Of a stretch of 64,000 nucleotides of DNA, positions 1 to 64,000 are shown piece after piece. The stretch comes from Ianthella basta (lineage: Eukaryota > Porifera > Demospongiae > Verongiida > Ianthellidae). The notes under the pieces are model-generated. The model was not told the origin of the DNA. It did no database searches and saw only the letters and a program-made list of their open reading frames with translations. Position 1 is the first letter of the stretch; each line of letters starts with the position of its first letter. Position numbers and translations under genes: made by a program. The stretch covers positions 2,875,553-2,939,552 of the forward strand of contig OZ025890.1 in NCBI GenBank assembly GCA_964019415.1, read 5' to 3'.

Positions 1-1855
1 AGACCCCTACTACAGAGTAGTGAGTGACACACTTTTGGTTGATGTCACTTCCTATGATTATGGAGGGAGGTACTACTGTTCTGTGAATTACAACAAAAGG
101 CAACAACAGGCAAAGTCTGCTGGCTTTACACCTCGGATCACTGTGGCTGGTTAGTATACACACCATGAATACCATGGATACTTTTTCTATCTCACTGACA
201 CACCTTCCCTCTCTATACAGGTAACACTGCTCCCTTCCTATACACCCCCATCTCCCTCCTCCCTGAGAGCTCCCTCATCACTGATGTACAACAGGTAACA
301 GGGAGGAATGGACAACAGTGGATAACATGTAACAGTGGCAGACTGACACAAAGGCCACAGATTAAGATAGGGAGTGTTGTAATTCGTCTTTCAAACCATA
401 CTTCTAACTCTGCCACTATTGAGCCTGTCATGGACCGTCCTAATGGACTCTACCACTGTTCATCAGGACATTCACGACAATTAATGCAAAATTTCTCACT
501 TTACTTTCAGAATTCAGGTAAGCACTTTTGTCATTATCATGCCAAATTTAGTATCATAAAACACACTGGCAGAGTGTATGCAAATTTGGGTTGTAATGCT
601 TTTACTGTTCTAATTTGATTCATTGCTATTCCCTCCTCCCAGCCCCTCTACCAACACCCACTGTACATGACCAGGACTCTACTATGTGGACACTTACATC
701 ACCAGATGGCAGCCAAGTAGAGAGATATATTGTACAGTTTGAGTGTAGGGTACGAAACATCACATTTGTAGTGAAGTACATGAGTGTCAGTGCTAATGGA
801 GGAAGTGGACGAGAAGCAACAAGTCAATCCTGTTTTGTAGTAGGCCAGCTCTACAAAGTGAAGGTGTGGTCAGTTAGTGGAGCCAACATCAGTCACCAGC
901 CAACAGTGAAGTGTCTTACACCAGATGGGCAGTGCAGGGAGGAAGGTGGGAGATGCACAATGATGTGTAGTGTTTGTGACTATTGTTGTGGAAATGGGTG
1001 ATGTGCATGGGTGTGGTCAGCATTGTCCTTTTAAAGTAAACTATGAAGTTCATGGTGTTTTTGATTGTAATTGCATGGTCATGTGCACTTGATGGACCAA
1101 TAACAAGCCCATGCAGTGATGCTTGCTCTAACGGCTTTAGGTGGCAGAGAGACTGCAACTCCATCAACAGTGACTGCTACATCAGCAAGAAGTGATACGT
1201 CACCCACCACACCCAGTGGACCTTCCGGCTCCGGTACACAACCTGCTAATATGAAGCATAATGGTGAGGACCTCAGAGTTGTACATGTACAGTAGTGCAT
1301 ACTCCAAAGCAACCAAACCAAATGGGATTTATGAAGTATGTCCAAAGAAATTCTACTACATGCTGTACTATGCCTTCTTTTTTACTCACCTCTGTTTATC
1401 AGCATTTGCATCCACAGTTCAATTTGTGGCCATTAATCGCATTCTGAAATGAGGTGAAATAGTTTGAAGAGGAATGTTACTGCCATTAGTACCTGATTCC
1501 ATGAAACAAAAGACTGTTATTATGCTGTTGCCTCCTTGTATAGGTACATGCACACGTACTCCTTCAACAGTGGTACCAATTGCAATATCATTTGGAACCC
1601 TAATGGCTCTCTTGCATGGGCATTGTCACATTCACTGCTGGTGTAGTGATGTTGGTCAGAACCAAGAGGGTACTAGACCACTCCCACAAACCACCTCCCC
1701 TTGGAGATGGCCACTATGAGATAGTGGATGAAGGAAAGAAGAGTGCATCTCTTAGTGCAGTGGTCTATGAGGAGGTAGACAAGCAGGACACACAGACAGA
1801 CAGACACTCCAACCAGTATCAGGATCTGGAACTGACAAAGATGGCAGGGAATTAG
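1..1855 (+). pseudogene. R1: Ig/FN3 transmembrane receptor, 5' truncated by window, tail type 2, broken
   Basis: Exons by homology to intact copies: 1-149 (end of Ig1, with the D-Y-G-G-R-Y-Y-C F-strand motif), 221-517 (Ig2), 643-945 (FN3), 1141-1263 (Ser/Thr/Pro stalk) and 1544-1855 (transmembrane plus tail). All introns are phase 1 with GT-AG ends. The usual stalk acceptor is TTG here, and a downstream CTTTAG at 1140 replaces it in frame. Two lesions are visible. First, the transmembrane segment entered from the stalk frame (VVPIAISFGTLMALL) must shift by one base near 1605-1620 to reach the tail frame (GIVTFTAGVVMLVRTKR). Second, TAG at 1853-1855 stands where R7 has GAG, which removes the last YASINA residues. 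The tail has DGHYEIVDE and VVYEEVDK tyrosine motifs like R7. The signal exon lies outside the window. A sequencing error cannot be excluded for the frameshift. Confidence 0.8.
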
Positions 1856-2432
1856 TATGCCTCCATCAATGCTTAAATAGCTAGTGTTGAGTATTTACGT
1901 ATGTAGCATTCTTTGTGTCATGCTTTCAGACACACAACCACATGTCTGGTAGTTGACTGTAGAATAGGCTGTGTGTACTCCATTTAAAGTACATATGTAG
2001 CAAGATGCAATATGTAGTAATAGCGACACCAAACATGATGATTTGCAATTGCTGTGTGAGCCACTGCCATATATGGTATCAATTTATGAATTCATAATCA
2101 CTATACTTGGTCCAGCATATAAACATTGCTGGTGAGACCCAAATTTCAAAGGCATAAAAAAATAATATGGACAATTGTAAAGCACAGAATAGAACCAGCC
2201 TGTTACAGTCTGGCATGTAGCTCTTGTATTGTGTATCTCATCCAAGTATGTACAAATTACTGACTACACTATCTCCAGTTTATTGTACAACTTGTGCAAA
2301 ATTGCACTCGTTTCCCTTTCACATTGTGCACTCTTGTATAAATGGGGTTGCTACAACCCCGTAGCCTCTTGTTCCACTGCCCTAGGTGTGAAATATTCAT
2401 GACTGGAGCAATACAAATATATTTTGCCAACA
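1856..2432. other. 3' flank of R1, no gene seen
   Basis: The first ~540 bases match the 3' flank of R7 (about 50254-50800) closely, so R1 and R7 share their ends including noncoding sequence. No coding potential is seen. Confidence 0.6.
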
Positions 2433-3680
2433 GTTGATCCCAAATTCAGACGTTTCGGCAACCTACAGATACCTTCATCAGTGAATACTTGACACTTACT
2501 GTACAAGCACAGATGTATATATATATATGTACAATCGATCATGCAGATGATGACATGGTCACATGAGGTACACGAGTACAACAGAGCAAGGATTGTTGCC
2601 AGAAATACAGACAATAAAATTAGTGATAATAAAATAATGATAAGAATACTAGAGGAAAAGAGGGCTGAGTACCTAGAACACCAAAAAGGAAACATGGTCA
2701 GTTCAACAGTGCTGTGTAGAGTTCTGGCAAGGTGCCCTTCTCACTGCTGAGGGTGACCTGATGGTGCTGTATGTGCCAGGACTCTAATATGCATTGTGTC
2801 TGAGTGAGGGAAGGGTCAGTGCTGCACGTCTTTCCTCACTACCTTGAACCTGGTTCGGCTGTAAAATGGTGTGTCTACGGATAAAGCTCATTGGGTATCT
2901 ACTTCTTTGGATGGCTTTAGTGACGCACCTTTCTCCTCCACCCGGCTCATCCCTGATGACGAAAGGGCCTCAGCTCTGTGCAGTAGTGTCCTGACGATGG
3001 CACTCTTGTGCACCATTGGATGGTGGGACTGGAAATTCAGATACTGATCTGTGCAGTCTTGCAGTACACACTGCATGGTGCTGACTGAACCAATGTTGTC
3101 CTCCTGTGTCAAGATAATGTCCAGGAAGAGGAGCTGCATGCTTAGCTGACTCCTTCTCAACTGTGAACAGTATGTTGGAGTCAACACTGTTCAGGTGGTT
3201 GTGAAAGGATTGACCAGGTCCACAGGGACTATAGTGCACATGTTATCTACATGCCATCTCCAGAAACATGAGGAGTATGAAAGGGTGAAAATGCCACATT
3301 GATCGACGCACATCCCTACACTCAGACATAATGCATGTTGGAGTCCTGGCACTTACTGCACCATCGAGCCATCCTCAACAGGAGGAGGGCACCTTGCCAG
3401 AACTCTATGCAGCACTGTTGGACTGACCATATTTCCTTTTGGTGTTCTAGGTACTCACTCCCCTTTTTCTCTTGTATCCTAATCAATACATTAATTATCA
3501 CTAATTTTATTGTCTTTACTTCCTGCCACAATCCTTCCTCTGTTGTTACATGGGTACCTCACGGGACCATGTCACCATCTGCCTGCTCAATTGTGTTAAT
3601 ATGTTTGTGCTTGTAAGTGTCAATAATTCACTGATGAAGACATCCGTAGGGTACCAAAACGTCTAATTTTGTGATCAAGC
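2433..3680 (-). mobile_element. Penelope-like retroelement remnant with long inverted arms
   Basis: The element has two ~370-bp arms in inverted orientation, about 2433-2815 and 3310-3680, diverged from one another but alignable along their whole length. Between them the minus strand carries a decayed reverse-transcriptase fragment. Each arm's end, read toward the outside, carries CTGATGAAG followed by a short stem and an (A/G)AAACGTC block, a motif of the hammerhead type known from Penelope-like elements. Inverted or partial terminal repeats are typical for that class. The insertion lies between R1 and R2 and has no counterpart between R7 and R8. The class assignment rests on the RT fragment and the arm motif, not on a search. 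Confidence 0.6.
2888..3239 (-). pseudogene. Reverse transcriptase fragment (Penelope-like)
   Basis: The minus strand carries, in two overlapping frames, a run reading HLNSVDSNILFTVEKES, then LLFLDIILTQEDN, GSVST, TDQYLNFQSHHPMVHKSA and IVRTLLHRAE. This order (FTVE, then PFLD-like, then a sequence ending in DQYLNFxSHHP, then VRTL) matches the C-terminal palm/thumb region of Penelope-type reverse transcriptases as I know them. The frame changes near 3140-3170, so the copy is dead. The catalytic YADD box and a GIY-YIG endonuclease are not present. Confidence 0.6.
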
Positions 3681-3857: not shown

Positions 3858-6087
3858 ATGAAGGTACTGGTGGTTCTATTGGGACTCATCACAACCTGTC
3901 TTCTATTAGGTAGGAGGGGGAATATAGGCTGATTGCTAGGAGGGAAGGAGGGAACTGGGGACACAAGTGATTGTGGGGTACCATCCACATGACCAACAGG
4001 AGATGGAGCTGTTACAGTGAGGATCAGGGCATACAATGCCACTGGAGAACTGGACATTAAAGCAGTGAGGACTCGCTATAAAGACAGTTTCACTCTGGGA
4101 ACAAGAGTCCTTCTGACTTGTGATGTGGACCAACTACCTGTGGGCAGTGAGGTAGTCAGCTACAAGTGGAAACACAACTGCACAGGAGGCACTCAAGGGA
4201 GGCGTGAGATACAAGAGGGAGACCCCTACTACAGAGTAGTGAATGACACTCTTTTGGTGGATGTCACTTCCTACAATTATGGAGGGACGTACTGGTGTTC
4301 AGTGAATTACAGCAATATGCTACCAATGGCAATTGGGTTTACACCTCAGATCACTGTGGCAGGTTAGGGCACACATCATTCAATACCATGGACACTACAT
4401 ACTGTACATGCACCTTACATCATCCATCTCTATGATGATTATAGGTAACACTGCTCTCTTCCTATACACCCCAATTTCCCTCCTCCCTGAGAACCCCTTC
4501 ATCACTGATGTACAACAGGTAACAGGGAGGAATGGACAACAGTGGATAACATGTAACAGTAGGAGACAGACACCAAGGCCACAGTTCATGAGGGGAAGCA
4601 ATTTCATTACTTCTTCTAATAGTACTCTAAACTCTGCCACAATTTGGGTAAGTAGCCGCCGTCCCAATGGACTCTACTACTGCTTCATATCACAGAGACA
4701 CTACTTCTCACTCTACTTAAGGAATTCAGGTAAGCTATTACCCCATGTGCCCAACTTAGCAGCACAAGACACACTGCTCTGGTAGACTGTGTGTGAACTC
4801 AGGCTATAATGGTTATCACTGCTCTTGTTTGATTAAATGCCATTCCATCCTCCCTGCCACTCTACCAACACCCACTGTACATGACCAGGACTCTACTATG
4901 TGGACACTTACATCACCAGATGGCAGCCAAGTGGAGAGATATATTGTACAGTTTGAGTGTAGGGTACGAAACATCACATTTGTAGTGAAGTACATGAGTG
5001 TCAGTGCTAATGGAGGAAGTGGACGAGAAGCAACAAGTCAATCCTGTTTTGTAGTAGGCCAGCTCTACAAAGTGAAGGTGTGGTCAGTTAGTGGAGCCAA
5101 CATCAGTCACCAGCCAACAGTGAAGTGTCTTACACTAGAAGGTGAGAGGTGCACAATGATGTGTAGTGATTACGACTATTGTTGTGGAAATGGGTGATGT
5201 GGGTGTTGTCAACATTGTCCTGTAAGTGAAGAATCTCAAAGTTAGTCAGGGGCCCAGTAAATGAAGTATCAAGTTTTCAGTTAGTCAGGGGTAGTGTGGT
5301 CCCTCCCCCTTGTGGGGAGGGGTCAAGTATTGCCTGACTAGTTCACAGTTTACCAATTTGTGGTGATTGTATGGTCATGTGCTCTAGTTGGACAAACAGC
5401 AAATTATCATTATTACAGTAAGATTTACCATATATTTTTGTGCATATAACATACCTTACATACTTACTGGTGGGCCTAATTCTTGTAGTAGTGGTGAGAA
5501 GGAAAACTGTTCTTGCACAGAATGGAGACATGACGATGGATGAGAATCCGTACTACAACAAGACAGCAGTGATGGAGCAAGAGATTGAGATGAGAGAGAA
5601 AGATCTAGCTGCTATTAATGAAGATCCAGATAATGGCAAGGGTGAAGAAACTGGCTCTACTGTTGATGGCTTTGATCTCCATGAAGATGTCGATAGTAAA
5701 GTACGGATGAAATCCACAGAGAAACCTGCCTCAGAAGTGTCTACTACACCAGCCAATGCAGCCAACATTGAGGAACTGTATGCTGTTGTGGACAAGAGCA
5801 AGAATAAGGAGACCAAGACGGAGAGAGAAGGTGGGACTGCTGCAGCAGACAGAGGTGATCTGTACTCCATGCCAATGAAAAAGAAAGGTATGATGACAGA
5901 GGAAGGGGAAGGAGTGGTTGAGAGTGTTGGTGTGGAGAAGGGAGAAGAGTATGATGACATGGTAGGGCTCAAGTATGAGCCAATGGCAGACAGTGAGTCT
6001 GGGCAGCAAAGTGAAGGAGATCGCAAGGCTCTTAATGTTGACATGCTCTATGCAGTCGTGGATAAGAGCCATAAGAAGAAACAGTGA
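3858..6087 (+). pseudogene. R2: Ig/FN3 receptor with lost splice acceptor and lost stalk/transmembrane start
   Basis: Exons by homology: 3858-3909 (signal peptide MKVLVVLLGLITTCLLL), 4000-4362 (Ig1), 4445-4729 (Ig2) and 4857-5141 (FN3, six codons short at its end), then a tail open from 5440 to the stop at 6087. The FN3 acceptor AG is TG at 4855-4856, while every other copy keeps AG, and the next AG downstream is out of frame. The stalk exon survives only as ~33 bases after 5390 and the first half of the transmembrane exon is missing, although VGLILVVVVRRK and the whole type 1 tail are open. That tail has NPYY, EELYAVV, DLYSMPM, LKYEPM and MLYAVV. A long open tail behind broken upstream exons suggests recent inactivation or an unrecognised alternative transcript. 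Confidence 0.75.
5282..5340. mobile_element. Short hairpin MITE-like element in R2 intron
   Basis: A 59-bp element begins TAGTCAGG and ends CCTGACTA, with an internal CCCTCCCCC/GGGGAGGGG foldback. It is flanked by 9-base repeats GTTTTCAGT (5273-5281) and GTTCACAGT (5341-5349), consistent with a decayed 9-bp target-site duplication. R7 and R8 carry the same insertion at the same intron site. Confidence 0.65.
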
Positions 6088-7258: not shown

Positions 7259-10200
7259 ATGGCTCTCAATTCTTGTCTGCCAACAGTGACTACACTGATG
7301 GTGGCCTTTCTTCTGCTCATTAACCAAGGTGGTACCTCCTCTGCTGGCAGACCTCAGTTGTTCTGGGTGGCAGCAGACAAAGCACAATGTAGCAACTACA
7401 GCAATGGCAGTGACTGCGACACACTAGCTGGATACCAACTGAGGAAGGATGTCAACTTCTCCCTCTCTGACACCACCTGGGTCTTCCTACATGGTGAGCA
7501 TAAGTGGGGCTCTGGAGGAAGTAGCCTGAGAATTGTGGGAGCAAGAAATGTGACATTCAAAGGAGACGAGCAATGTGCTATGGGAGCTGAGAAATGTGCT
7601 TTAGTGATGCAGCAGTACATGTACAGTATTGCAAGTGTTCTTGTGGGGCAGTCAAGTGATGTCACGTTTGTAAATTTGATTCTAGAACATTTTGGTAATA
7701 TTGATGTGACACAAACAAGTAACTTTCATGTTTATTCTGTTCACTTCCGGTACACAAATCTGGTTGTACATGATCCTTTCGGAGATTACACAATAGAGGG
7801 AAGCCATTTTGGCCCGTGGTCCCGTATTAACACAGAGCTTAGTGCTTGCCCTTGTGCATCAGAGAGGAAATGTAAATTTACCTTCACGGTCAAAGAATGC
7901 AAATTGGAAATGGATTATGCTTCTACTACTGATTCGTCTTCAGGTTTTGTATTTGGTAAAGATGGTTATCCGTGGCCTACTGGCATAGCCATTTCAATGC
8001 ATAACCAAACCTACTACCATTTCATTGGCATGTTCATTACCAACAGCACCTTTTCCTACAGCGATTTAACTGTGATTGTCAGAAACTATCCAACAAGTTC
8101 ACTTGCTGTGGAGATCAAAAACGTTACTTTCAACAGGTGTCTTGTCAATGTGGAGCTGCCTTTAATGAAGACTGTGACATATTCTGAGGGAGCTCGTGTG
8201 CTTATAAATGAAAGCAATTTCATAGTATCGCATGATGGAAAATTGGATATTTGTCTCCGGCTTAATTTGTCCCAAGACAGCCTGGGAAAAGTATCAACAC
8301 AGCACCCTGAGATAGTTATTGCAAACTCAAACTTTCAAGATGACCAACTCGCACAACATGAGGATGACGTTGACATATACCCCTACATACTTAGGGCTAG
8401 GATCACTCACAATCTATATCACCTTGAAGCCAAGCATAGGCCATTGTTGACTATTCTACGCTGCACATTCAAGAGAACGAGGCGAGATGTAGTACTTGAG
8501 CTAAGCAACCTACAAGGGTACAGAGTGTTACTGGCTGGCAATCAGATAATATCAAATGAAGGCATGTATCTACAGATGAGCAGCACCCAAGTGGAGCTTC
8601 ATGGCTATAATGAAATCAGCAGTAACAACGTCAAATTAGTTCTGGGGAATGATGGTGGTGGAATCTATCTGTCATCTGATTCTCGGTTGTTACTGGCACC
8701 ACACTCATTTCTGAATGTGTCTGCAAACAGAGGAGACCCATATGGAGGTGGAATATACATTGATTACAAGGGCAGAGGTGTACGGACACTGAATGAGTTT
8801 GTAGACTGTTATGTTGATAAGCTGACCTGTCCAGGATGGTGTTTCTTTCAGTTCATCAACAGTGATGGGCAGTATGTGAATGCAAGTGACATAGCAGAAC
8901 ACAATGCAACTGTTATACTGTCAAACAACACAGCAACCTATGGTGGGAACAATGTCTTCAATGGACACTTTCAGAACTGCATTCTACGGACTGCCCATGG
9001 CACTGCACCAGCCAACAGAGAGCTCATCCTCAATGTCTTCCAACAGTATCCTCCCATGGATGAAGAATCAATACCTTCTTTCCCCTATGCCATCTGCTTC
9101 TGTGGTGGTGATGAACTCAGCTGCATCGGGAACAACAAATTAGTGATAGAGACTTACCCTGTACAGCAGCTCCCAATATTTGTGACAGTTTTAGGAGATT
9201 GGGAACGTGAGATACCAGTAAGGCTAACAGTAGCAATGGCACAGTCAGAAAAGCGTAATAAACTGGACATTAAAGGCTGTACCCGAGTGCACACAGTAGA
9301 GCATCCCAATGGACCAGTACCAGGCAGCAGGCATGAACTGTTACTGGAGGCATCACTGGATATCGGTGACAACTTTCAAAGATTTATAGTAATTCATGTC
9401 TTTAATGACTGCTCCCCAGGGTTGCAATATATAGACCAACAATGCATATGCAACCCATTCCTCAAACAACACCATTTCACCTGTACCATCATGTCAAATA
9501 CAGCAACATACAAGGCTGAATGGCCATATTACTGGATTGGTGTTGTGGAGGAACATGTAATACTGAGCCCAAGTTGTCCCATGTTCTTCTGCAACTCGGC
9601 ATTGCAGTCCGGTCTAGCACTAGACAGTAACAGTGACAATAGCTTGCAATGCATCAATGGTCGTCGAGGCCTGCTCTGCAGTGAATGCCCATCAGGTTAC
9701 AGTTCAGTGTTTGGCTCTTTCAAATGCAAACAGTGCTCCAGTGTGTGGTTACTTCAGTTACCACTGTATGCATTGGGAGGGGTCTTCATTGTTGCTCTTC
9801 TGTTCCTCTTCAACTTAACTCTCCTCCAAGGAACCATCATGGGTGTGGTGTTGTACACCAACATCATGGGACTCATGGGAGACTTCCTTCATGAACATGC
9901 CTGGGGTCCACTGTTCTTTCTCCTGTCAGTACTCAACCTACAGTCAGGTGCTGGAGTGTGTTTCTACAGTGGGATGGATGAGTTCTTGAAGGCTCTTCTC
10001 CAGTTTGCATTTCCCTTCTACCTCTTCACCTTGCTCATAGTCATCATCATTGTCACTCACAAGTGTGGCTACAGGATGTTCAGAAAGGCTCGCTTCATAG
10101 CCAGGAGAGCTGTACCAGTACTGGCCACCATCATGGTACTCACATACACCTCTCTTGTGAGTGCTGTCATCACTCCACTGAGGTACACTACACTTTACAA

Positions 10201-11125
10201 TGCAGACACTGCACAAGGTCAAACAGTTTGGCTGTATCAACCCTCCCTGCCCTTCTTTGGCGGCCAGCACCTTGTCCTGGGCATCCTGTCCATTGCAGTG
10301 ACTGTGCTCTACCTGATTCCCTTCACATTCACAATGCTCTTTGGAGATCTGATGAGAAGGTACTTCCACAAGTTGTGGTTCAGTCACTTCATGGATGTCC
10401 TCCATGGAGGATTCAAATGGCCCCTTGGTTTCTGGATTGGCTTGAGATTGCTGGCACGAGTCATCCTTGTGGCTATAAACATCACTACCAATCCAAACAC
10501 TTCCGCTTTCTGCACTATGGTCACAGCTGAGACACTGCTAGTTGTTCAGTTGCTGGTCAAACCATTCAGGGATCCAAACCAATTCAGAGAAGACATCCAT
10601 GTAGAAGGCCTTCCATCTTGTAAGAGGAAGTGTTTAACACAGATAAAGAAGTTCTTGAACACATATCATGCTCCATTATTTGAGACTATGTACCTAGTCA
10701 ACATTGTACAAATGAGTGCAATGGTTGCCTTTGGTTCCCATTCAGAAACTGTGGTGCTCTCTGCTGCAGGAGTGAACTTCCTTATCATCATGGCACTTGT
10801 ACAGTTTGCAGTCATCCTTGTCTACCATGCCTACAACTTCTTCCCTGTACCAGAGAGAGCTCGTAGCTGTGCCCAGTCATGTTGGTCAACCATGCATGCC
10901 ATCCCCAGCATGCTAAAGGACACTCAGTGCTGCCGGAGGGGGCCCAGGGAGGAGGAGGAACCCAGAAGGAGCCCTGTTCCAATTCTGATCCTACGACCAC
11001 CAGAGGTTGATGAGAGCTATGAGAGTGAATCAGAGACCAGTTCTTGCAATGAGCATCCACCTCCAGAAGAGGTGGAAGTCAGAGAGAGCTCTCTACATGA
11101 ACCACTGTTGACATATTGTGACTAA
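7259..11125 (+). CDS. L1: intronless beta-helix-like ectodomain plus polytopic membrane protein
   Basis: A single open frame of 1288 aa from ATG 7259 (an in-frame ATG at 7247 is less likely, because the MAL start is the one conserved in L2 and L3). Residues 1 to about 30 are a signal peptide (TVTTLMVAFLLLINQGG). Residues of about 35-770 form the ectodomain, rich in N-x-S/T sites and recurring short beta-strand units of the type NVTFKG, ITNSTFS, IVIANSNFQ and TILRCTFKR, as in right-handed parallel beta-helices. About 797-826 is a Cys-rich knot (GLLCSECPSGYSS). About 828-1197 holds some nine hydrophobic helices, and the end is an acidic Ser/Glu-rich tail with ESESETSS and LLTYCD. I do not recognise a named family and assign no reaction; a surface recognition or sensory role is inferred from architecture and context. 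It is intact and the last gene of unit 1. Confidence 0.85.
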   Translation: MALNSCLPTVTTLMVAFLLLINQGGTSSAGRPQLFWVAADKAQCSNYSNGSDCDTLAGYQLRKDVNFSLSDTTWVFLHGEHKWGSGGSSLRIVGARNVTFKGDEQCAMGAEKCALVMQQYMYSIASVLVGQSSDVTFVNLILEHFGNIDVTQTSNFHVYSVHFRYTNLVVHDPFGDYTIEGSHFGPWSRINTELSACPCASERKCKFTFTVKECKLEMDYASTTDSSSGFVFGKDGYPWPTGIAISMHNQTYYHFIGMFITNSTFSYSDLTVIVRNYPTSSLAVEIKNVTFNRCLVNVELPLMKTVTYSEGARVLINESNFIVSHDGKLDICLRLNLSQDSLGKVSTQHPEIVIANSNFQDDQLAQHEDDVDIYPYILRARITHNLYHLEAKHRPLLTILRCTFKRTRRDVVLELSNLQGYRVLLAGNQIISNEGMYLQMSSTQVELHGYNEISSNNVKLVLGNDGGGIYLSSDSRLLLAPHSFLNVSANRGDPYGGGIYIDYKGRGVRTLNEFVDCYVDKLTCPGWCFFQFINSDGQYVNASDIAEHNATVILSNNTATYGGNNVFNGHFQNCILRTAHGTAPANRELILNVFQQYPPMDEESIPSFPYAICFCGGDELSCIGNNKLVIETYPVQQLPIFVTVLGDWEREIPVRLTVAMAQSEKRNKLDIKGCTRVHTVEHPNGPVPGSRHELLLEASLDIGDNFQRFIVIHVFNDCSPGLQYIDQQCICNPFLKQHHFTCTIMSNTATYKAEWPYYWIGVVEEHVILSPSCPMFFCNSALQSGLALDSNSDNSLQCINGRRGLLCSECPSGYSSVFGSFKCKQCSSVWLLQLPLYALGGVFIVALLFLFNLTLLQGTIMGVVLYTNIMGLMGDFLHEHAWGPLFFLLSVLNLQSGAGVCFYSGMDEFLKALLQFAFPFYLFTLLIVIIIVTHKCGYRMFRKARFIARRAVPVLATIMVLTYTSLVSAVITPLRYTTLYNADTAQGQTVWLYQPSLPFFGGQHLVLGILSIAVTVLYLIPFTFTMLFGDLMRRYFHKLWFSHFMDVLHGGFKWPLGFWIGLRLLARVILVAINITTNPNTSAFCTMVTAETLLVVQLLVKPFRDPNQFREDIHVEGLPSCKRKCLTQIKKFLNTYHAPLFETMYLVNIVQMSAMVAFGSHSETVVLSAAGVNFLIIMALVQFAVILVYHAYNFFPVPERARSCAQSCWSTMHAIPSMLKDTQCCRRGPREEEEPRRSPVPILILRPPEVDESYESESETSSCNEHPPPEEVEVRESSLHEPLLTYCD

Positions 11126-11759: not shown

Positions 11760-12680
11760 TCAGCATTATATACAGTGAAGGTGTATTTGACTTAGTAGAT
11801 TCAACATCAGTCGACAGCCAGCTGTGAAGTGTCTTACACCAGATGGGCAGTGCAGGGAGGAAGGTGGGAGGTGCACAATGACGTGCACTACTCTGACTGT
11901 TGTTGCTGAAAGTGATAGATACAGTCAGCAGTGCATTTGGAAGCACACACAAAATGCAAGTAGTGCTACGGTAACCAGCAATTATGTATGATTAACGCAC
12001 GCATGTACATATACATGTGCAGCTAATGGATCAGTACTGATAACTCAAATGACTGCGTCAACAGCAATAGTTCATTGGTGGCCTTTACAATTAATGTTTG
12101 CAGTATACGCATACTTGGACATGATTGTTCAACTGTATCTATTGTAGGTGGGCTGGAGGCAGAGCAAACTTCCTACTTGCACAGTTGGCTGGAACAGCAG
12201 CTCCTGTAGGCCACTATCAAACCACTCCACTGTGGTTGCTCCAGATTAATACACTGCCAACATTAGCTTATTGTTTGCCTCATGTATCACCACTCTCCAT
12301 GTAGCCCTAATCAGGGTCTTTCATTTCCTCTCCAATCTGCGATTGGCACATTAAATAAAAGTCGGTGGCTGGTGTACATAGATCCTTCCTCCTTATTGTG
12401 ATCTTGGTGGCCTGACTATGAAGTTGTAGGCAAAGGTTAGGCAAGAATGAAGACAATTGCTCATTCACTGATGGTTAAGATGTACATAACAGGAAGGCTA
12501 AGGGAGTGGCAGAGTGTGGCAGAGGAGTAAAAGAGTGCACAGTAGGTCTCAAGTATGAGCTGATAGCAGACAGTGAGTCTGAGCAGCTGTGTGAGGTGAT
12601 ATAGTGATGTTCCAATTGTTGACATACTGTACATAGTTATGAAAAAGACCTGTAAGAAGAAAAGACTTAGTGCATGAATT
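11760..12680 (+). pseudogene. r1: degenerate receptor remnant
   Basis: It contains a scrap of the FN3 exon 3' end with its donor region (about 11815-11885: GAAGTGTCTTACACCAGATG then GGGAGGAAGGTGG), a decayed transmembrane region near 12365-12420, and a piece of tail near 12540-12605 equivalent to VGLKYE-xx-ADSES with an early stop. No continuous frame remains. Equivalent remnants follow L2 and L3, so the relic pre-dates the unit duplications. Confidence 0.6.
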
Positions 12681-14025: not shown

Positions 14026-15304
14026 ATGAAGGTACTGATAGTTCTCATCACAGCCAGCCTTCAATTAGGTAGGAAGGGGACTAGGACTGATTGCTAGGGA
14101 AAAGGGGTACCATCCACATGACTCACAGGAGATGGAGCTGTTACAGTGAGAATCAGGGCATACAATGCCACTGGAGAACTGGACATTGAAGCAGTGAGGA
14201 CTCCCTATAAAGACAGTTTCACTCTGGGAACAAGAGTCCTTCTGATTTGTGATGTGGAACAACTACCTGTGGGCAGTGAGGTAGTCAGCTTCAAGTGGGA
14301 ACACAGCTGCACAGGAGGCACTCAAGGGAGATGTGAGATACAAGAGGGAGACCCCTACTACAGAGTAGTGAATGACACTCTTTTGGTGGATGTCACTTCC
14401 CATGATTATGGAGGGAGGTGCTGGTGTTCAGTAAAAATATTACACTATGCTACCTGTAGCAATGGGGTTTACACCTCAGATCAGTGTGGCTGGTTAGTGC
14501 TCACACCAGAAATACCATGGACACTAATGCACCTCACACCATCTCTAAATATGTAGGTAACACTGCTCCCTTCCTATACACCCCCATCTCCCTCCTCCCT
14601 GAGAACTCCCTCATCACTGATGTACAACAGGTAACAGGGAGGAATGGACAACAGTGGATAACATGTAACAGTGGGAGAACAACAAAAAAAGCCACAGTTT
14701 CTGAGGGGAAGCAATGTCATTACTCCTTCTAATAGTACTCCTAACTCTGCCACAATTTGGGTAAGTAGCCACCATTCTAATGGACTATACTACTGCTTCA
14801 TATCACAGAGACACTACTTCTCACTCTACCTAAGGAATTCAGGTAAGCTACATATTACCCCATATGCTATAATTTGCAGCACAAGACACACTGCTGGCAG
14901 ACTGTGTGTGAACTCAGGATACAATGCAAATCACTGCTCTTGTTTAATTAAATGCCGCTCCATCCTTCCAGCCACTCTACCAGCACCCACTGTACTTGAC
15001 CAGGACTCTACTATGTGGACACTTACATCACCAGATGGCAACCAAGTGGAGAGATATATTGTACAGTTTGAGTGTAGGGTACGAAACATCACATTTGTAG
15101 TGAAGTACATGAGTGTCAGTGCTAATGGAGGAAGTGGACGAGTAGCAACAAGTCAATCCTGTTTTGTAGTAGGCCAGCTCTACAAAGTGAAGGTGTGGTC
15201 AGTTAGTGGAGCCAACATCAGTCACCAGCCAGCAGTGAAGTGTCTTACACCGGATGGGCAGTGCAGGGAGGAAGGTGGGAGGTACACAATGATGTGTAGT
15301 GTTG

Positions 15305-16236: not shown

Positions 16237-16261
16237 ATGATTGCATGGTCATGTGCACCAG

Positions 16262-26880: not shown

Positions 26881-26937
26881 ACATGCACTATTGTACACCA
26901 CATGCACTATTGTACACCACATGCACTATTGTACATC
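26881..26937. repeat. 19-bp minisatellite upstream of L2
   Basis: Three head-to-tail units of ACATGCACTATTGTACACC; the third unit ends TC. The matching array upstream of L4 (about 60054-60120) has a fourth, partial unit. Confidence 0.7.
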
Positions 26938-45480: not shown

Positions 45481-45672
<192 letters not shown>

Positions 45673-47934: not shown

Positions 47935-50253
47935 ATGAAGGTACTGGTGGTTCTATTGGGACTCATCACAACCTGTCTTCAATTAGGTAGGAAGGGGAAT
48001 AGGACTGATTGCTAGGGAGGGAGGGAGGGAAGTGGGAACACAAGTGATTGTAGAGTAACATCCACATGACTCACAGGAGATGGAGCTGTTACAGTGAGGA
48101 TCAGGGCATACAATGCCACTGGAGAACTGGACATTGAAGCAGTGAGGACTCGCTATAAAGACAGTTTCACTCTGGGAACAAGAGTCCTTCTGACTTGTGA
48201 TGTGGAACAACTACCTGTGGGCAGTGAGGTAGTCAGCTACAAGTGGGAGCACAACTGCACAGGAGGCACTCGAGGGAGGTGTGAGATACAAGAGGGAGAC
48301 CCCTACTACAGAGTAGTGAGTGACACACTTTTGGTGGATGTCACTTCCTATGATTATGGAGGGAGATATTGGTGCTCTGTGAATTGCAGCAGTATGCCAC
48401 TGGTAACAACTGGCTTTACACCTCGGATCACTCTGGCTGGTTAGTGCACACACTGTAGATACCCATGGACACTGTGCACCTTACACCTTCCTTCTCTAAA
48501 TCATAGGTAACACTGCTCCCTTCCTATACACCCCCATCTCCCTCCTCACTGAGAACTCCCTCATCACTGATGTACAACAGGTAACAGGGAGGAATGGACA
48601 ACAGTGGATAACATGTAACAGTGGGAGACTGACACCGCAAAAGCCACAGATTAAGATGGGGAGCACTTTCATTCCTCTATCAAAGCATAGTCTTAACTCT
48701 GGCACTATTGGGCTAGTCATGGACCGTCCTAATGGACTCTACCACTGCTTAGCAGGAGGTTCACAAATGCAATATTTCTCACTTTACTTACAGAATTCAG
48801 GTAAACATTATTGCCATTATCATGCCAAATTTAGTATCATAAAGCACACTGGCAGAGTGTATGAAATTTGGGTTGTGATACGTTTACTGTTCCTATTCGA
48901 TTCAATGATATTCCCTCCTCCCAGCCCCTCTATCACCACTCACTGTACATGACCAGGACTCTACTATGTGGACGCTTACATCACCAGATGGCAGCCAAGT
49001 GGAGAGATATATTGTACAGTTTGAGTGTAGTGTACGAAACATCACATTTGTAGTGAAGTACATGAGTGTCAGTGCTAATGGAGGAAGTGGACGAGTAGCA
49101 ACAAGTCAATCCTGTTTTGTAGTAGGCCAGCTCTACAAAGTGAAGGTGTGGTCAGTTAGTGGAGCCAACATCAGTCACCAGCCAGCAGTGAAGTGTCTTA
49201 CACCAGATGGGCAGTGCAGGGAGGAAGGTGGGAGGTGCACAATGATGTGTAGTGTTTGTGAGTATTGTTGTGGAAATGGGTGATGTGGGTGTGGTCAGCA
49301 TTGTCCTGTAAGTGAAGCATCCAGTTCACAGTTATTCAGGAGCAGTGTGGCCCCTTCCCCTTGTGGGGAGGGGTCAAGTAATGCCTGACTAGTTTGCAGT
49401 TTCCAATTTGTGGTGATTGTTTGGTCATGTGCACTAGATGGACCAACAACAAGTCCAATTATGTTTACACCGATATCTAAAGGAAGTCCAACTCCATCAA
49501 CCACAGCTACTACGTCAACAAGAAGAGACATGTCTCCCACCACACCAAGTGGACCACCACATTCCAGTACAGACAACACACAGTCTAATGGTATGCATTT
49601 CAATAGACTTGAATATCTCATCACAGCAAATGCATGCGTTATGTGTAGAAAGAATATACGTATGTAGAACATGTGCATATTAAAGACCATTTGGTGTATA
49701 ACACTGAGAGCTTTTGCACTGCAGGCAAACAGATGAATATGTGCATGCTTCTTGTGTCAGTGCATGCTTCTTGCACCACTGACACTCTGTGTTTTCACTT
49801 ATCCTCTCAGTCCCTCCATGTCTAATGTCTCCACTCCTTGTAGGTGGCCAACTAACAATCGGTACATACATTGGAGTGGGGGTTGGTGTGGGTGTGTTCA
49901 TCCTCATTGTCTTGGTGATCACGGTAGGACTAATTCTTGTAGTAGTGGTGAGAAGGAAAACTGTTCTTGAGCAGAATGGAGACATGACGATGGATGAGAA
50001 TCTATGCTACAACAAGACTGCAGTGATGTTAGTCAGAACCAAGAGGGTACTAGACCACTCCCACAACCCACCTCCCCTTGAAGATGACCACTATGAGATA
50101 GTGGATGAAGGAAAGAAGAGTGTATCTCTTAGTGCAGTGGTCTATGAGGAGGTAGACAAGCAGGACACACTGGCAGACAGACACCCCAGCCACTATCAGG
50201 ATCTGGAACTGACAAAGATGGAAGGGAATGAGTATGCCTCTATCAATGCTTAA
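47935..50253 (+). CDS. R7: Ig-Ig-FN3-stalk type I receptor with tail type 2 (intact)
   Basis: Exons 47935-47986, 48077-48439, 48507-48800, 48925-49227, 49438-49590 and 49844-50253 give 524 aa. Residues 1-17 are the signal peptide, 18-138 Ig1 and 139-236 Ig2. Residues 237-337 are FN3 and 338-388 a Ser/Thr/Pro stalk (TPSTTATTSTRRDMSPTTPS), probably O-glycosylated. The transmembrane helix is about 400-424. The tail first follows type 1 (VLEQNGDMTMDEN, but with LCYN instead of PYYN), then switches after KTAVM to the R1-like sequence LVRTKRVLDHS. Its motifs are DHYEIVDE, VVYEEVDK, SHYQDLEL and NEYASINA. VVYEEV and SHYQDL fit the (V/I/L/S)xYxx(V/L) inhibitory motif. An intron hairpin element is at 49333-49391. 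The intact splice sites and frame make this a good candidate for an expressed inhibitory receptor. Confidence 0.85.
49333..49391. mobile_element. Hairpin MITE-like element in R7 intron
   Basis: A 59-bp copy (left end TATTCAGG, right end CCTGACTA) flanked by GTTCACAGT (49324-49332) and GTTTGCAGT (49392-49400), at the same site as in R2 and R8. Confidence 0.65.
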
Positions 50254-51981: not shown

Positions 51982-54520
51982 ATGAAGGTACTGGTGGTTC
52001 TATTGGGACTCATCACAACCTGTCTTCAATTAGGTAGGAGGGACTGATTGCTAGGGAGAGGGAGGGAACTGGGGACACAAGTGATTGTGGGGTACCATCC
52101 ACATGACTCACAGGAGATGGAGCTGTTACACTGAGGATCAGGGCATACAATGTCACTGGAGAACTGGACATTGAAGCAGTGAGGACTCGCTATAAAGACA
52201 GTTTCACTCTTGGAACAACAGTCCTTCTGACTTGTGATGTGGAACAACTACCTGTGGGCAGTGAGGTAGTCAGCTACAAGTGGGAACACAACTGCACAGG
52301 AGGCACTCAAGGGAGGTGTGAGATACAAGAGGGAGACCCCTACTACAGAGTAGTGAATGACACTCTTTTGGTTGATGTCACTTCCTATGATCATGGAGGG
52401 AGGTACTGGTGTTCTGTGAAATACAGCAATATGCCACTGGTAACAACTGGCTTTACACCTCGGATCACTGTGGCTGGTTAGTACACACACTGTAGATAAC
52501 CATGGACACTGTGCACCTTACACTTTCCTTCTCTAAATCATAGGTAACACTGCTCCCTTTCTGTACACCCCCATCTCCCTCCTTCCTGAGAACTCCCTCA
52601 CCACTAATGTACAACTGGTAACAGGGAGGAATGGTCAACAGTGGATAACATGTAACAGTGGGAGACTGACACAAAGGCCACAGATTATAATGGGGAGTGT
52701 TGTAATTCGTCTTTCAAACCATACTTCTAACTCTGGCACTATTGGGCCAGTCATGGACCGTCCTAATGGACTCTACCACTGCTTAGCAGGAGGTTCACAA
52801 ATGCAATATTTCTCACTTTACTTACAGAATTCAGGTAAACATTTTTGCCATTATCATGCCAAATTTAGTATCATAAAGAACACTGGCACTGGCACTCCAT
52901 CCTCCCAGTCCCTCTACCACCACCCACTGTACATGACCAGGACTCTACTATGTGGACACTTACATCACCAGATGGCAGCCAAGTGGAGAGATATATTGTA
53001 CAGTTTGAGTGTAGTGTACGAAACATCACATTTGTAGTGAAGTACATGAGTGTCAGTGCTAATGGAGGAAGTGGACGAGTAGCAACAAGTCAATCCTGTT
53101 TTGTAGTAGGCCAGCTCTACAAAGTGAAGGTGTGGTCAGTTAGTGGAGCCAACATCAGTCACCAGCCAGCAGTGAAGTGTCTTACACCAGATGGGCAGTG
53201 TAGGGAGGAAGGTGCGTGAAGATGATGTGTAGTGTGTTTGTGACTTATTGTTGTGGAAATGGGTGACATGGGTGTGGTCAGCATTGTCCTATAAGTGAAG
53301 TATCAAGTTCACAATTAGTCAGGAGCAGTGTGACCCTCCCCCTTGTGGGGAGGGGTCAAGTAATGCCTGACTAGTTCACAGTTTTCCAGTTTGTGGTAAT
53401 TGTATGGTCATGTGCACTATGTAGATCCAACGACAAATCCAACGATTACGCATAGTATATCTAAAGGAAGTCCAACTCTATCAACAGCAGCTACTACATC
53501 ATCAAGAAGAGACATGTCACCCACCACACCAAGTGGACCACCACATTCCAGTACAGACAACATGCAGTCCAATGGTATGCAATTTTGTAGACTTGAATAC
53601 CTCATCACAGCAAATGCATGCATTTTCAAAGAAGGAACATATGTAGTACATGTGCATATTAAAGACCATTTGGTGTATGCATAATTACTCTGCAGACATA
53701 CAGATGAATACCTGGTATGTGCATGCTTCTTGTGTCAGTGCATGCTTCTTGCACCACTGACACTCTGTGTTTTCACTTATCCTCTCAGTCTCCTCCGTGT
53801 CTAATGTTTCCACTCCCTGTAGGTGACCAACTAACAATTGGTACATACATTGGAGTGGGGGTTGGTGTGGGTGTGTTCATCCTCATTGTCTTGGTGATCA
53901 TGGTGGGCCTAATTCTTGTAGTAGTGGTGAGAAGGAAAACTGTTCTTGCGCAGAATGGAGACATGACGATGGATGAAAATCCATACTACAACAAGACAGC
54001 AGTGATGGAGCAAGAGATTGAGATCAGAAAGAAAGGTCTAGGTGCTAGTAATGAAGATTCTGACAATGTCAAGAGTGAAGAAAATGGCTCTATCATTGAT
54101 GGCTTTGATCCCTATAAAGATGTCGATAGTAAAGTACGGATGAAATCCACAGAGAAACTTGCCCCAAAGGTGTCTACTACTCCAGCCAGTGCAACCAACA
54201 TAGATGAACTGTACGCTGTTGTGGACAAGAGCAAGAAGAAGGGGACCAAGAAAGAGAGAGAAGGTGGGGCTGCCGCAGCAGACAAAGAAGGTCTGTACTC
54301 TATGCCAATGAAAAAGAAAGGTATGATGACAGAGGAAGGGCTGGGAGTGGTTGAGAGTGTTGGTGTGAAGAAAGGAGAAGAGCATGATGACATGGTAGGG
54401 CTCAAGTATGAACCGATGGCAGACAGTGAGTCTGGACAGCAGAGTGAAGGAGATGGCAAGGTTCTTAATGTTGACATGCTCTATGCAGTCGTGGATAAGA
54501 GCCATAAGAAGAAACAGTGA
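51982..54520 (+). CDS. R8: Ig-Ig-FN3-stalk type I receptor with tail type 1 (intact, full architecture)
   Basis: Exons 51982-52033, 52114-52476, 52544-52834, 52909-53211, 53425-53574 and 53823-54520 give 618 aa, the only copy with every module and the full type 1 tail. Residues 1-17 are the signal peptide (MKVLVVLLGLITTCLQL), 18-138 Ig1 (TCDVEQ, YKW, YDHGGRYWC), and 139-235 Ig2 (WITC to GLYHC). Residues 236-336 are FN3, 337-386 the Ser/Thr/Pro stalk, and about 398-422 the transmembrane helix. Residues 423-618 are the tail with ENPYY, DELYAVVDK, GLYSMPM, LKYEPMAD and MLYAVVDK. Intron 3 is only 74 bp. The stalk acceptor is ATGTAG with a 2-base change from the usual site. NPxY, YxxM and YxxV motifs suggest PTB- and SH2-domain partners; this is inference from motif type. 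Confidence 0.88.
53316..53373. mobile_element. Hairpin MITE-like element in R8 intron
   Basis: A 58-bp copy, TAGTCAGG to CCTGACTA, flanked by GTTCACAAT (53307-53315) and GTTCACAGT (53374-53382), a 9-bp duplication with one difference. Confidence 0.7.
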
Positions 54521-55290: not shown

Positions 55291-55978
55291 CTAGGAGGGA
55301 GACCCAACTGCCAGGCCAATGGCCAAAGCAATGATAAAGACAATGTAGAAGATAATGGTAGTGATGTTAGCCAAAATTGTCAACCAACCACAGGTATTTG
55401 CAGTCTGTTCATTGACAGTGGAGGACTGCCCCTGTAAAGCAAAACACAAGAGGATGTAATGAATGTGTTGTACAAAGCCCACCCCCACACACATGCACAC
55501 AAACACACGTACACAAATAAGAGTAGTAATGTACAAGTGCACTCATCTTAGTGTATATATGCAGAGCAAGAAATTTATGGAGTGCTTGGCATTCAGTGGC
55601 AGTAGTAATGGACCACCCCCCTTCCATCCCTGATGAGCACATTAGATCTAAACTCACAACAATGGCACAAATCAGAGCTGGAATAATGCAGACAATGATG
55701 GCAACGTTACCACAGATCAAGCACACAAAGAGGAGGCTGAGGGTGAAGATCAGAGGAGGGAGTGTTTCATTGGCACGGTGACTTGAAGGCTGCACATAGG
55801 TGGTGGTGGTGGTGGGCTGGGTAGCAATCACTGTGGTGGTGGTGGTGGTGGCAGTCTGGAAGGAGGAGAAGAAAAGAATAGAGTCAGTCCAGATCATGAC
55901 AGCATGACAAGTGCTCTATAAACCTCACTTACTCCATGTGTGTGTCAAAGCCACATACCTGTGGAGAATAGCCATAAC
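55291..55978 (-). CDS. D2: small two-helix membrane protein, possibly CD225/dispanin-like (5' exon not found)
   Basis: Minus-strand exons 55959-55978 (20 nt, YGYSPQ; six bases shorter than in D1, in frame), 55658-55855 (66 codons; the Thr run is longer than in D1) and 55291-55431. The last exon ends VGSPS then TAG, while D1 reads on. Changes relative to D1 keep the frame and the two helices, and the differences are mostly conservative or in the Thr run, which supports a real gene. It lies opposite in direction to R8 and L4. Confidence 0.45.
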
Positions 55979-60237: not shown

Positions 60238-63200
60238 ATGACTCTCAATTCTTGTCTGCCAACAGTGACTACACTGATGTTGGCCTTTCTCCTGCTCGTT
60301 AACCAAGGTGGTCCCTCCTCTGCTGGCAGACCTCAGTTGTTCTGGGTGGCAGCAGACAAAGCACAATGCAGCAACTACAGCAGTGGCAGTGACTGCGACA
60401 CACTGGATGGATATTGGAGAAGATATAAATATGATGTCAACTTCTCCCTCTCTGACACCACCTGGATCTTCCTACATGGTGAGCATCAGTGGGACTCTGG
60501 AGAAAGTAGCCTGAAAATTGTGGGAGCAAGAAATGTGACACTCAAAGGTGATGATAACTGTGCCCTGGAAGCTAAGAAATGTACTATAGTTAACAACATT
60601 TTCATTAAACAATCAAATGGTATCACATTGCAGCAACTGAGATTACAGACTGGTACAGTCGTTGTTATACAAACAAGCAACTTCTATATTCATTCTGTTG
60701 ATTTCTTGAGAACATCAATGCTTATCAAGGAACCATTTGGCAGTTACACACTAATGAAAAGCTCCTTTAGGTCCCTGTCTGGTTACCACCTTTTTGCAAC
60801 ACTTCATGCCTGCCCATCCACATCTGAAGTAAACTGTAACTTTACCTTCATTGTTGAACAGTGCAGCCTGGAAATGGAAGAATATCCTACAGACGATTTT
60901 CGAGACATTAGCACTGGCATAATTGTAAATGAGAAAAGCTACTACCACTACATCAAGATTGCTATCATCAACAGTACGTTTATCAATAGCCATTTACATG
61001 TACTTTTTTACGGCTACCCAGTAGGTTCACTTGATCTTGGTGTCCAAAATGTAACTTTCAATGGTAGCATCATGAATTTTAGAATGCCTTTAGTGGAGAA
61101 TATGATCTATCCTGAGGTGGCTGGTGAATGGTTGGGAGCATATGTACTTGTACAAGACTGTAATTTCATGGGGACAAATGATCAGGCTATGGCTATTGGT
61201 CTCATCCCAAGTTGGTTTCAGGATAGCTATAACCAAGGAAGAGTAGTGAAGCAGCACCCTGAAATTGTTATATCACATTCAAACTTTCGAGGTGGGGTAT
61301 ATGTATTTTTTTACATAATACAATTTCAACTCGATGTTCAGATTACTTTTCCTAATGAGCATACTCTCCATGAAGCCACGAATAGAACATTGCTGACTAT
61401 CCTACATAGCACATTCAAGAGAGCCAGACAAGGTGCAGCACTTCACCTACATCACCTACAGGGATATAAAGTAACATTGGCTGAGGGCAATCGGCTGATA
61501 TCAAATGAAGGCTTCGGTCTACTACTGAACAGAACCCAAATCGAACTACATGGTTATAATGAAATCAGTGGTAACAAATTTACGAGGCATACAGCTGGTG
61601 GTGGAATCTATCTGTCATCTGATTCTCAGTTGCTACTGGCACCACACTCACTTCTGAATGTGTCTGCTGATATAGTAGACCCATATGGAGGTGTACTATA
61701 CAACAGTTACAAGGGAAGAGCAACACAGACATTGAATGAGTTTGTAGACTGCTATGTTGATAAGCTGACCTGTCCAGGGTGGTGCTTCTTCCAGTTGATT
61801 GACAGTGATGGACAGTATATGAATGTGAATGACATACCACAGCACAATGCAACTGTTATATTGCCAAACAACACAACAAGCCTTGGTGGGAACAATGTCT
61901 TCAATGGACACTTTCAGAATTGCTCTCTACAAACAGCCCATGGTACTATACCAGCAAGCAAAGAGCTTATCCTCAATATCTTCCTTCACTATCTTCCCAT
62001 GGACAAAGAAGTGACTCCCTCCTTCCCTTATGCCATCTGTTTCTGTGACAGTATTGAGCTCAACTGCGGCATCAGGAACCACACTTTAGTGATAAAGACC
62101 TACCCAGTAAAAGAGTTCACGTCATTTGTAACAGTGGTAGGAGACTGGCAACACGAGATAGCAGTAAGTCTAACAGTAGCACTTCCACAGCTGGGAACAG
62201 AGTATAAGCTGGACATCAAAGGCTGCTCCAAAGTGCACACATTGGAGCACCCCAATGAACCACCACCAGGTAGCAGGTATGAACTGTCATTGAAAGCATC
62301 ATTCAGGAACAGTGATGCTGAACTTCAAAGGATTATAGCTATTCATTTCTTTAATGACTGTTCTCCAGGACTGGAGTATAAACATGCAAGCAAACAATGT
62401 GAATGCAACCCATTTCTTGAGCAGCACCATTTCACCTGCACTATCACAAACAATAAAACTACGTACAGGGCAGAACAGTCACACTACTGGATTGGGATTA
62501 AGGATGAACATGCAATACTCAGCCCCAGTTGTCCCATTTTCTTCTGCAACTCGGTCCTGCAGTCAGGTTTAACTCTAGACAACAGCACTATTGATAGCCT
62601 GCAATGTAGCCATGGCCGTCAAGGCCTGCTCTGCAGTGAATGCCCATCAGGTTACAGTTCAGTCTTTGGCTCTTTCACATGCAAAGAGTGCTCCAGTGTG
62701 TGGTTACTTCAGTTACCACTGTATGCATTAGGAGGGATCTTCATTGTTGCTCTTCTGTTCCTCTTCAACTTAACTCTCCTCCAAGGAACCATCATGGGTG
62801 TGGTGTTATACACCAACATCATGGGACTCATGGGAGACTTCCTTCAAGAACATGCCTGGGGTCCACTGTTCTTTCTCCTGTCAGTTCTTAGCCTACAACC
62901 TGCTGCTGGAGTGTGCTTCTACAGTGGAATGGATGAGTTCTGGAAGGCTCTTCTCCAGTTTGCCCTTCCTTTCTATGTCTTCACTTTGCTCATAGTCATC
63001 ATCATTGTCACTCACAAATGTGGCTACAGGATGTTCAGAAAGGCTCGCTTCATAGCCAGGAGAGCTGTACCAGTACTGGCCACCATCATGGTACTCACAT
63101 ACACCTCTCTTGTGAGTGCCGTCATCACTCCGCTGAGGTACACTACACTTTACAATGCAGACACTGCACAAGGTCAAACAGTTTGGTTGCATCAACCCTC

Positions 63201-63965
63201 CCTGCCCTTCTTTGGTGGCCAGCACCTTGTCCTGGGCATCCTGTCCATGTGCTCTACCTGATTCCCTTCACATTCACAATGCTCTTTGGAGACCTGATGA
63301 GAAGGTACTTCCACAAGTTGTGGTTCAGTCACTTCATGGATGTCCTTCATGGAGGATTCAAATGGCCACTTGGTTTCTGGATTGGCTTGAGGCTGTTGAT
63401 ACGAGTCATCCTTATGGTTGTAAACATCTCTACCAATCCAAACACTCCTACTTTCAGTGCTGTTGTCACAGCTGGGACACTGTTAGTTGTACAGTTGCTG
63501 GTCAAGCCATTTCGGGATCCAAACCAATTCAGAGAAGACATACACATACAAGGCCCACCATCTTGTAAGAGGATGTGTTTGACATGGATGAAGAAGTTCT
63601 TTAACATGTATCATGCTCCATTATTTGACACACTGTACTTGTTCAACATTGCTCTAACAAGTGCAATGGTTTCCTTTGGTACTAATTCACAAACAGTGGT
63701 GCTGTCTGTTGCTGGAGTGAATATCCTAATCCTCCTGGCACTTGTGCAGTTTGCTGTCATCCTTGTCTACCATGCCTACAACTTCTTCCCTGTACCAGAG
63801 AGAGCTCGTAGCTGTGTCCAGTCATGTTGGTCAACCATGCGTGCCATCCCCAGCATGCTAAAGGACACTCAGTGCTGCCGGAGGGGGCCCAGGGAGGAGG
63901 AGGAACCCAGAAGGAGCTCCATCCCAATACTGATTCTACAGCCACCAGAGATTGATGAAAACTAA
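60238..63965 (+). pseudogene. L4: beta-helix/polytopic membrane protein, frameshifted and C-terminally truncated
   Basis: The frame opens at ATG 60238 (MTLNSCLPTV) and runs through signal peptide, ectodomain, Cys knot and the first helices to a stop at 63261. At 63248 ten bases (TGCAGTGACT in L1) are missing, which shifts the frame. The correct downstream frame resumes with VLYLIPFTFTMLFGDLMRRY and continues to a stop at 63963-63965, after PPEIDEN. L1-L3 carry about 35 more residues with ESESETSS and the LLTY end, so the tail is cut as well. The ectodomain is the most divergent of the four (for example DFRDISTGIIVNEKSYYH) while the helices are nearly identical to L1-L3. Two C-terminal lesions suggest a dead copy; a single assembly error could explain only the first. 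Confidence 0.8.
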
Positions 63966-64000
63966 TCAGATATGAGTTTTCTAGAATGAGTAACCTCATC
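63966..64000. other. Start of L4 3' flank
   Basis: Remnant of the tail-coding region past the new stop; nothing else seen before the window ends. Confidence 0.5.

Follow-up and report, generated by a model that had tools for sequence, protein, structure and literature searches.

The stretch analysed here (the window, 64 kb, C23:2875553-2939552 of a single 209-Mb genome assembly in 96 contigs) carries a tandem array of two gene families, called R and L in the following. R genes encode predicted type I receptors with immunoglobulin (Ig) and fibronectin type III-like (FN3-like) exons and repeated tyrosine motifs in the tail, and L genes are long single frames for putative polytopic membrane proteins. 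The array is real and comprises eight R copies, four L genes and two blocks of a further sequence, D. A complex of R and L is unsupported, and the part worth following is the R family, in which a short tail (class B) or a long tail (class A) stands below a common pool of ectodomains; class B often shows the immunoreceptor tyrosine-based inhibitory motif (ITIM). On the plus strand the order is R1, R2, L1 / R3, R4, D1, L2 / R5, R6, L3 / R7, R8, D2, L4. Self-comparison and open frames thus bear out the fourfold R, R, (D), L order of a preliminary description of this DNA, and its many broken copies are also found: R3, R5 and R6 are broken, L4 is frameshifted and relics of R follow L1, L2 and L3. 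The features are listed below in window coordinates.

1-1873, plus strand: R1, cut by the window edge; Ig2 221-517, FN3-like exon 644-945, class B tail 1649-1873 with a stop inside it; membrane exon divided between two frames (split judged by eye)
3858-6087, plus strand: R2; signal, Ig1 4000-4360, Ig2 4445-4729, FN3-like exon 4860-5142, class A tail 5468-6087; an exon search at the gene found no recognisable stalk exon and no first part of the membrane exon
7259-11125, plus strand: L1, single open frame, 1288 amino acids; ectodomain, DUF7630-like cysteine motif, 7 hydrophobic segments
11774-12662, plus strand: R relic behind L1, ends of the FN3-like exon and of tail A
14026-17494, plus strand: R3, broken; frame change in Ig2, stops in the tail, added sequence between the FN3-like and membrane exons
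18556-20745, plus strand: R4, complete exon set without stalk exon, 569 amino acids, class A tail
22050-26970, plus strand: D1 block, near-identical to D2
27060-30941, plus strand: L2, single open frame, 1293 amino acids
31645-32017, plus strand: R relic behind L2
33660-35594, plus strand: R5, dispersed remnants of signal, stalk, membrane exon, FN3-like exon and tail A
36779-39251, plus strand: R6; Ig1, Ig2 and FN3-like exons open, frame change and stop in tail A
40782-44624, plus strand: L3, single open frame, 1280 amino acids
45191-45288, plus strand: R relic behind L3, end of the FN3-like exon
47935-50253, plus strand: R7, complete, 524 amino acids; class A membrane exon in frame with a class B (ITIM) tail
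51982-54520, plus strand: R8, complete, 618 amino acids
55221-60180, plus strand: D2 block
60238-63965, plus strand: L4, an L gene with a frameshifting deletion

In R4, R7 and R8 the exon set is complete, and the introns are of the GT-AG type and lie in phase 1. The model of R8 has six exons, namely signal (51982-52033), Ig1 (52114-52476), Ig2 (52544-52834), FN3-like (52909-53211), a stalk rich in serine and threonine (53425-53574) and a last exon with both the membrane helix and tail A (53823-54520). Ig1 is an Ig domain (PF00047, 8e-8), which is matched in 8 of 9 members and has MDGA1 as its closest solved relative (E 7e-6). Judged from sequence, a large clustered family of type I Ig receptors with ITIM-like tails in some members is supported. 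In these general terms (clustered type I Ig receptors, part of them with ITIM-like tails) the layout is indeed like that of known allorecognition loci, as had been proposed. Inside R3, at 15577-16062, a minus-strand open frame looks by eye like the end of a retrotransposon of the type lacking long terminal repeats and gave no Pfam match. The long trinucleotide microsatellite at 45470-45690 is open in several frames.

The genes L1, L2 and L3 are uninterrupted, and members of the family show 7-8 hydrophobic segments after the signal. Their portrayal as intronless polytopic beta-helix proteins agrees with these frames and segments; its beta-helix part is borne out in 2 of 9 members only (Beta_helix, PF13229, best 1.2e-5), L1 itself not being among those shown. 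DUF7630 is matched in 8 of 9. PDB searches found no solved relative for the whole protein. On another contig (C19:4040476) an L-like membrane part lies within an open frame of 2947 amino acids. The D blocks are 94.8-99.7% identical per 300-column window from about 22190 onward, a sign of recent exchange or duplication. Both contain a minus-strand open frame with a hydrophobic stretch (D1 22241-22747, 169 amino acids; D2 55412-55915, 168 amino acids); neither has a Pfam match, and the assignment of D to a known family was dropped on that ground.

Genome-wide searches show R and L amplified apart. For L at least 101 matches were obtained, 97 of 143 candidates having been scored; merged, they represent at least 86 loci in eleven clusters or singles. 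The FN3-like exon of R gave at least 76 matches, nine of them with a stop: 9 on C23 around the window, 65 on C21 and one each on C9 and C8. The region C21:3.63-4.51 Mb, with its 65 matches in two opposed arms, is the main R array. Among the matches listed there is no L on C21, C8 or C9. Within 20 kb of each other are 8 of the 76 R and 7 of the 86 L, within 100 kb 9 and 7, and all of these neighbours are at the window locus.

The same separation is seen from the side of the L clusters. The best 150 of 272 Ig1 candidates lie at the C23 locus and on C21, C9, C8, C16 and C4, and none of them falls into another L cluster. In three intervals that separate L genes, on C13, C23 (2.2 Mb) and C19, no R exon stands above chance; one of these intervals is partly masked. 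No R exon occurs in the interval between L4 and L5, directly downstream of the window. The 1 kb upstream of five R and four L genes share no sequence beyond two 13-base matches (E 0.049).

These data bear on the proposal that R works with L in a single complex for self/non-self recognition, either as receptor with ligand or as receptor with co-receptor, and that their linkage is maintained on that account. It has in its favour the four interleaved units of the window and, as best precedent, the receptor families FF and FcoR of Botryllus, which passages of PMC12065747 describe as encoded in adjacent pairs. Since 68 of the 76 R have no L within 20 kb and 79 of the 86 L no R, no common upstream sequence was found and the L4-L5 interval is free of R, we regard it as very improbable. 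The constant co-duplication of L with R that had been postulated holds at the window locus only and fails already at its edge, and the joint action deduced from it finds no support. A functional unit of R and L on grounds of co-duplication was therefore rejected, since being duplicated together in a single window does not show that two genes act together. Because the neighbours are all at this locus, the inter-L gaps are free of R and common upstream sequence is missing, we read the interleaving as a one-off neighbourhood that was later amplified.

Further arrays of related style were met in the same searches. Distant Ig1 matches (best 150) form arrays at C8:6.26-7.65 Mb and C16:5.56-5.73 Mb, away from the listed L clusters. 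Large arrays of other Ig_2 exons (best 150 of 1350 candidates) lie at C8:1.76-3.49 Mb, C21:1.2-2.67 Mb, C19:5.76-6.15 Mb and elsewhere. Arrays of Calx-beta domains (best 150 of 969 candidates), perhaps of aggregation-factor type, are found among other places at C11:4.8-8.1 Mb, C6:7.36-8.47 Mb and C23:1.68-1.83 Mb.

The R tails fall into two classes. In the window R1 and R7 have the short class B tail and the remaining R with a readable tail the long class A; the whole genome holds at least 51 class B and 48 class A tail matches. Tails were read from the upper part of the lists, that is 20 of 48 class B and 20 of 36 class A matches on C21, with R7, R4 and R8 added. A strict ITIM is present in 12 of 21 class B tails versus 13% of shuffled tails, and the four tyrosines of this class stand in like contexts. 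In class A a strict ITIM occurs in 4 of 22 tails (shuffles of the 20 C21 tails: 28% without and 43% with the helix) and NPxY in 20 of 22; every one of the 20 C21 tails counted has two YAVV sites. The term inhibitory-type, applied earlier to the tails as a whole, hence fits class B but not class A, whose rate is not above that of shuffled tails.

Both classes draw on the same ectodomains. Trees were built from 23 of 65 C21 genes and six of the eight window genes (R3 and R5 were omitted as broken) with 28 rows for Ig1, 27 for Ig2 and 29 for the FN3-like exon; R1 has no Ig1 row and two rows had no usable Ig2. On the Ig1, Ig2 and FN3-like trees tail class changes 11, 9 and 12 times, and shuffled labels gave values as low in 271, 162 and 289 of 300 trials. 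Array arm changes only 3, 3 and 5 times, as low as in none of 300 shuffles. The trees thus track the array arm and not the tail class, which means that ectodomains are local and common to both tails. A direct case of tail exchange is R7, where an A-type membrane exon is fused in frame to a B tail. Along the minus arm of C21 tails of class A and class B take turns: 20 of 22 assigned neighbours differ, a number reached in 6 of 20000 shuffles. This count omits the matches on C8 and C9 and, for three tails, the second piece.

Divergence is very unevenly distributed along both genes. For L, synonymous divergence (dS) was scanned in 60-codon windows over the pairs of L1-L4, and medians were taken over twelve L genes (66 pairs). 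It is 0-0.25 in the first two windows, climbs in the third and, apart from the close pair L2-L3, ranges from about 0.6 to saturated over codons ~110-450; in the membrane part most values are 0-0.35. Median dS at the locus is 0.55 in the ectodomain versus 0.14 in the membrane part, in the cluster at 2.1-2.26 Mb 0.99 versus 0.20, and membrane dS is the lower value in 64 of 66 pairs. Compared with a distant gene on C15 the ectodomain is saturated and the membrane part reaches 1.4-1.9. Since the membrane part thus diverges with distance, its low local dS is better explained by homogenising exchange added to purifying selection than by fixed constraint, and the pattern suggests gene conversion in L.

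A different view of L takes it as a chance passenger with a role outside recognition, for example as sensor or channel, in which ectodomain divergence reflects weak constraint. Its polytopic build with a large ectodomain and the pairwise ratio of nonsynonymous divergence (dN) to dS, omega, of 0.36-0.77 for the ectodomains of L1-L4 would suit such a role. Genome searches show many copies that have kept frames of more than 1000 codons; these together with omega below 1 speak for constraint, and we consider this view of L doubtful.

For R at the locus dS is 0.029 in the FN3-like exon, 0.127 in Ig1, 0.145 in tail A and 0.282 in Ig2; introns differ by a p-distance of 0.26-0.28, and pooled omega is 0.53-0.82. 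Pairs with dN above dS number 4 of 21 for Ig1, 1 of 21 for Ig2 and 11 of 28 for the FN3-like exon. In a wider set with C21 and C8 genes added (29, 27 and 10 rows for Ig1, Ig2 and FN3-like) the entropy maximum falls in the central part of Ig2; there the ratio of nonsynonymous to synonymous differences per site (pN/pS) is 0.74-1.34. Windows of eight columns with pN/pS above 1 amount to 6 of 19 in Ig1, 3 of 15 in Ig2, all in its middle, and 7 of 16 in the FN3-like exon, where synonymous changes are few. Positive selection on average is unsupported, omega being below 1 in every pooled partition. As single pairs and windows nevertheless exceed 1, local diversification may remain.

The preliminary description had spoken of hypervariable ectodomains above near-invariant membrane parts. 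For L both statements are apt, the first for the ectodomain core. In R variability is concentrated in the middle of Ig2, the invariant part is the FN3-like exon of the ectodomain, and tail A is, by the dS values just given, clearly less uniform than that exon.

Taken together, the following course appears the most probable, and we would give it a probability of roughly 0.6. Chance neighbours R and L would have been duplicated together as a local tandem array, most simply by unequal crossing-over. The R genes of the window are an outlying cluster of a family of at least 76 copies, broken ones included, with its main array on another chromosome. The product would be a type I receptor with an Ig domain, a V-like domain, an FN3-like domain, a stalk, one membrane helix and a tyrosine tail. 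Such receptors would be paired: a like ectodomain, on binding its ligand, may be read via phosphorylated tyrosines that recruit phosphatases with Src homology 2 (SH2) domains (class B) or offer docking sites for SH2 or phosphotyrosine-binding (PTB) domains (class A). Ectodomains may be carried from tail to tail by gene conversion, with divergence going on in the middle of Ig2. L would be a separate family of polytopic beta-helix proteins, the ends of which are homogenised around a diverged ectodomain core.

Candidate genes for the downstream part exist in the genome. Within about 20 kb at C16:693.8-713.4 kb lie two series of SH2-SH2-phosphatase matches, in order and on one strand, and among the matches listed SH2 and tyrosine kinase stand side by side by position on C4. 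By position it is plausible that the former are candidate genes for SHP phosphatases and the latter for a Src-type kinase.

Several observations weigh against the model of accidental linkage and two-tailed paired receptors. At the level of domains Ig2 has weak likeness to V-set domains (best E 0.02), with nothing below E 0.1 in Pfam, and neither Pfam nor PDB searches matched an FN3 profile to the FN3-like exon; the initial labelling of R as Ig/FN3 receptors accordingly stands for Ig1, is tentative for Ig2 and lacks profile support for FN3. Among the tails, 9 of 21 in class B have no strict ITIM, and inspection of those read in class A revealed neither an immunoreceptor tyrosine-based activation motif (ITAM) nor a charged membrane residue, for which reason we do not call this class activating. 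The classes do not alternate on the plus arm of C21 (14 neighbours differ, 21 are the same) or at the window locus (4 and 4). In 2 of 66 L pairs membrane dS is not below that of the ectodomain, and dS is the sole basis of the proposed conversion. All search counts are lower bounds that include broken copies, and some come from the best-scored part of the candidates. Finally, the local pairing of R and L may have some function.

What the R receptors would recognise is a separate question. R and L may both be innate repertoires facing microbes and have no part in allorecognition. They are large tandem families with broken copies, and the genome holds more Ig and Calx-beta arrays of like style; ITIM tails, on the other side, suit self-recognition as well as the control of effector cells. 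We hold this explanation to be possible, if somewhat short of an even chance. Alternatively the R arrays of C21 and C23 could be, by analogy with Alr of Hydractinia, the allorecognition receptor complex of a sponge, with L unrelated. Clustered Ig receptors, ITIM-like tails, broken copies and homogenised segments are in line with it, as is the diverged centre of Ig2, where pN/pS is close to 1 or exceeds it. Pooled dN/dS below 1 and the presence of other Ig arrays and of Calx-beta arrays, a domain known from aggregation factors, make this specific version unlikely. Still bolder, and in our estimation improbable, is the view that these R genes are the counterpart of Alr and fuhc in Porifera, that conversion shuffles their ectodomains between ITIM and non-ITIM tails and that some L serve as ligands in trans. 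Altogether, on sequence evidence, R may have a role in allorecognition, and as a family that recognises either self or microbes it is a fair candidate.

Contig C96 (21,233 bases) is the mitochondrion, as its COX1 match covers the whole family profile and nine TGA codons read as tryptophan under genetic code 4; it has 25 predicted tRNA genes (11 + 9 + 5). This code and a full mitochondrial tRNA set are features of demosponges and are not known from cnidarians, and on these grounds the host was taken as a demosponge. To our knowledge, self/non-self discrimination in sponges is still an open matter at receptor level. In a limited check of the open-access literature no report of a clustered family of ITIM-type Ig receptors in a sponge was found, and the passages available from other sponge papers and from an allorecognition review mention no such arrays. 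If true, a sponge family that joins one pool of ectodomains to two classes of tail would carry the ITIM paired-receptor logic, which passages of PMC12065747 report from cnidarians, tunicates and vertebrates, to a further early lineage. With the R family, graft and expression tests would have a defined set of genes to work on.

Alr of Hydractinia consists of clustered single-pass genes of the Ig superfamily with pseudogenes (passages of PMC11067881), and ITIM and ITAM motifs occur on Hydractinia candidate genes (passages of PMC12065747). R resembles this complex in being clustered, of type I Ig build, with tyrosine tails and broken copies, and differs from it, as compared by description, in having two tail classes over common ectodomains. 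The FcoR and fester proteins of Botryllus are, according to the same passages of PMC12065747, type I Ig receptors; their tyrosine motifs are of ITIM, hemITAM or core type, and signalling class differs among relatives. R has similar motifs and a similarly varying class. Unlike in the fuhc locus, as far as described there, no sushi domain was seen in R, and the R-L pairing occurs at one locus only in contrast with the adjacent FF/FcoR pairs. In a graft study of sponges adhesion genes of the aggregation factor were not enriched, and the word immunoglobulin was not found in the main text (passages of PMC5450542). L shares DUF7630 and Beta_helix with the corresponding Pfam proteins, in the proportions given above, and differs by the missing solved relative of the whole protein. 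Aggregation factors, as Calx-beta proteins, are the classical candidate for sponge self-recognition; the Calx-beta arrays of this genome lie outside the window and may be such factors. In vertebrates the paired receptors KIR, LILR, SIRP and PILR carry like ectodomains on different signalling tails and form tandem clusters. No homology with them is claimed, and class A of R departs from them by the features of its tail and helix noted above; the likeness is that in R, too, ectodomain lineages are joined to different tails, an inhibitory-type ITIM tail (by motif) is among these and the genes stand in tandem clusters.

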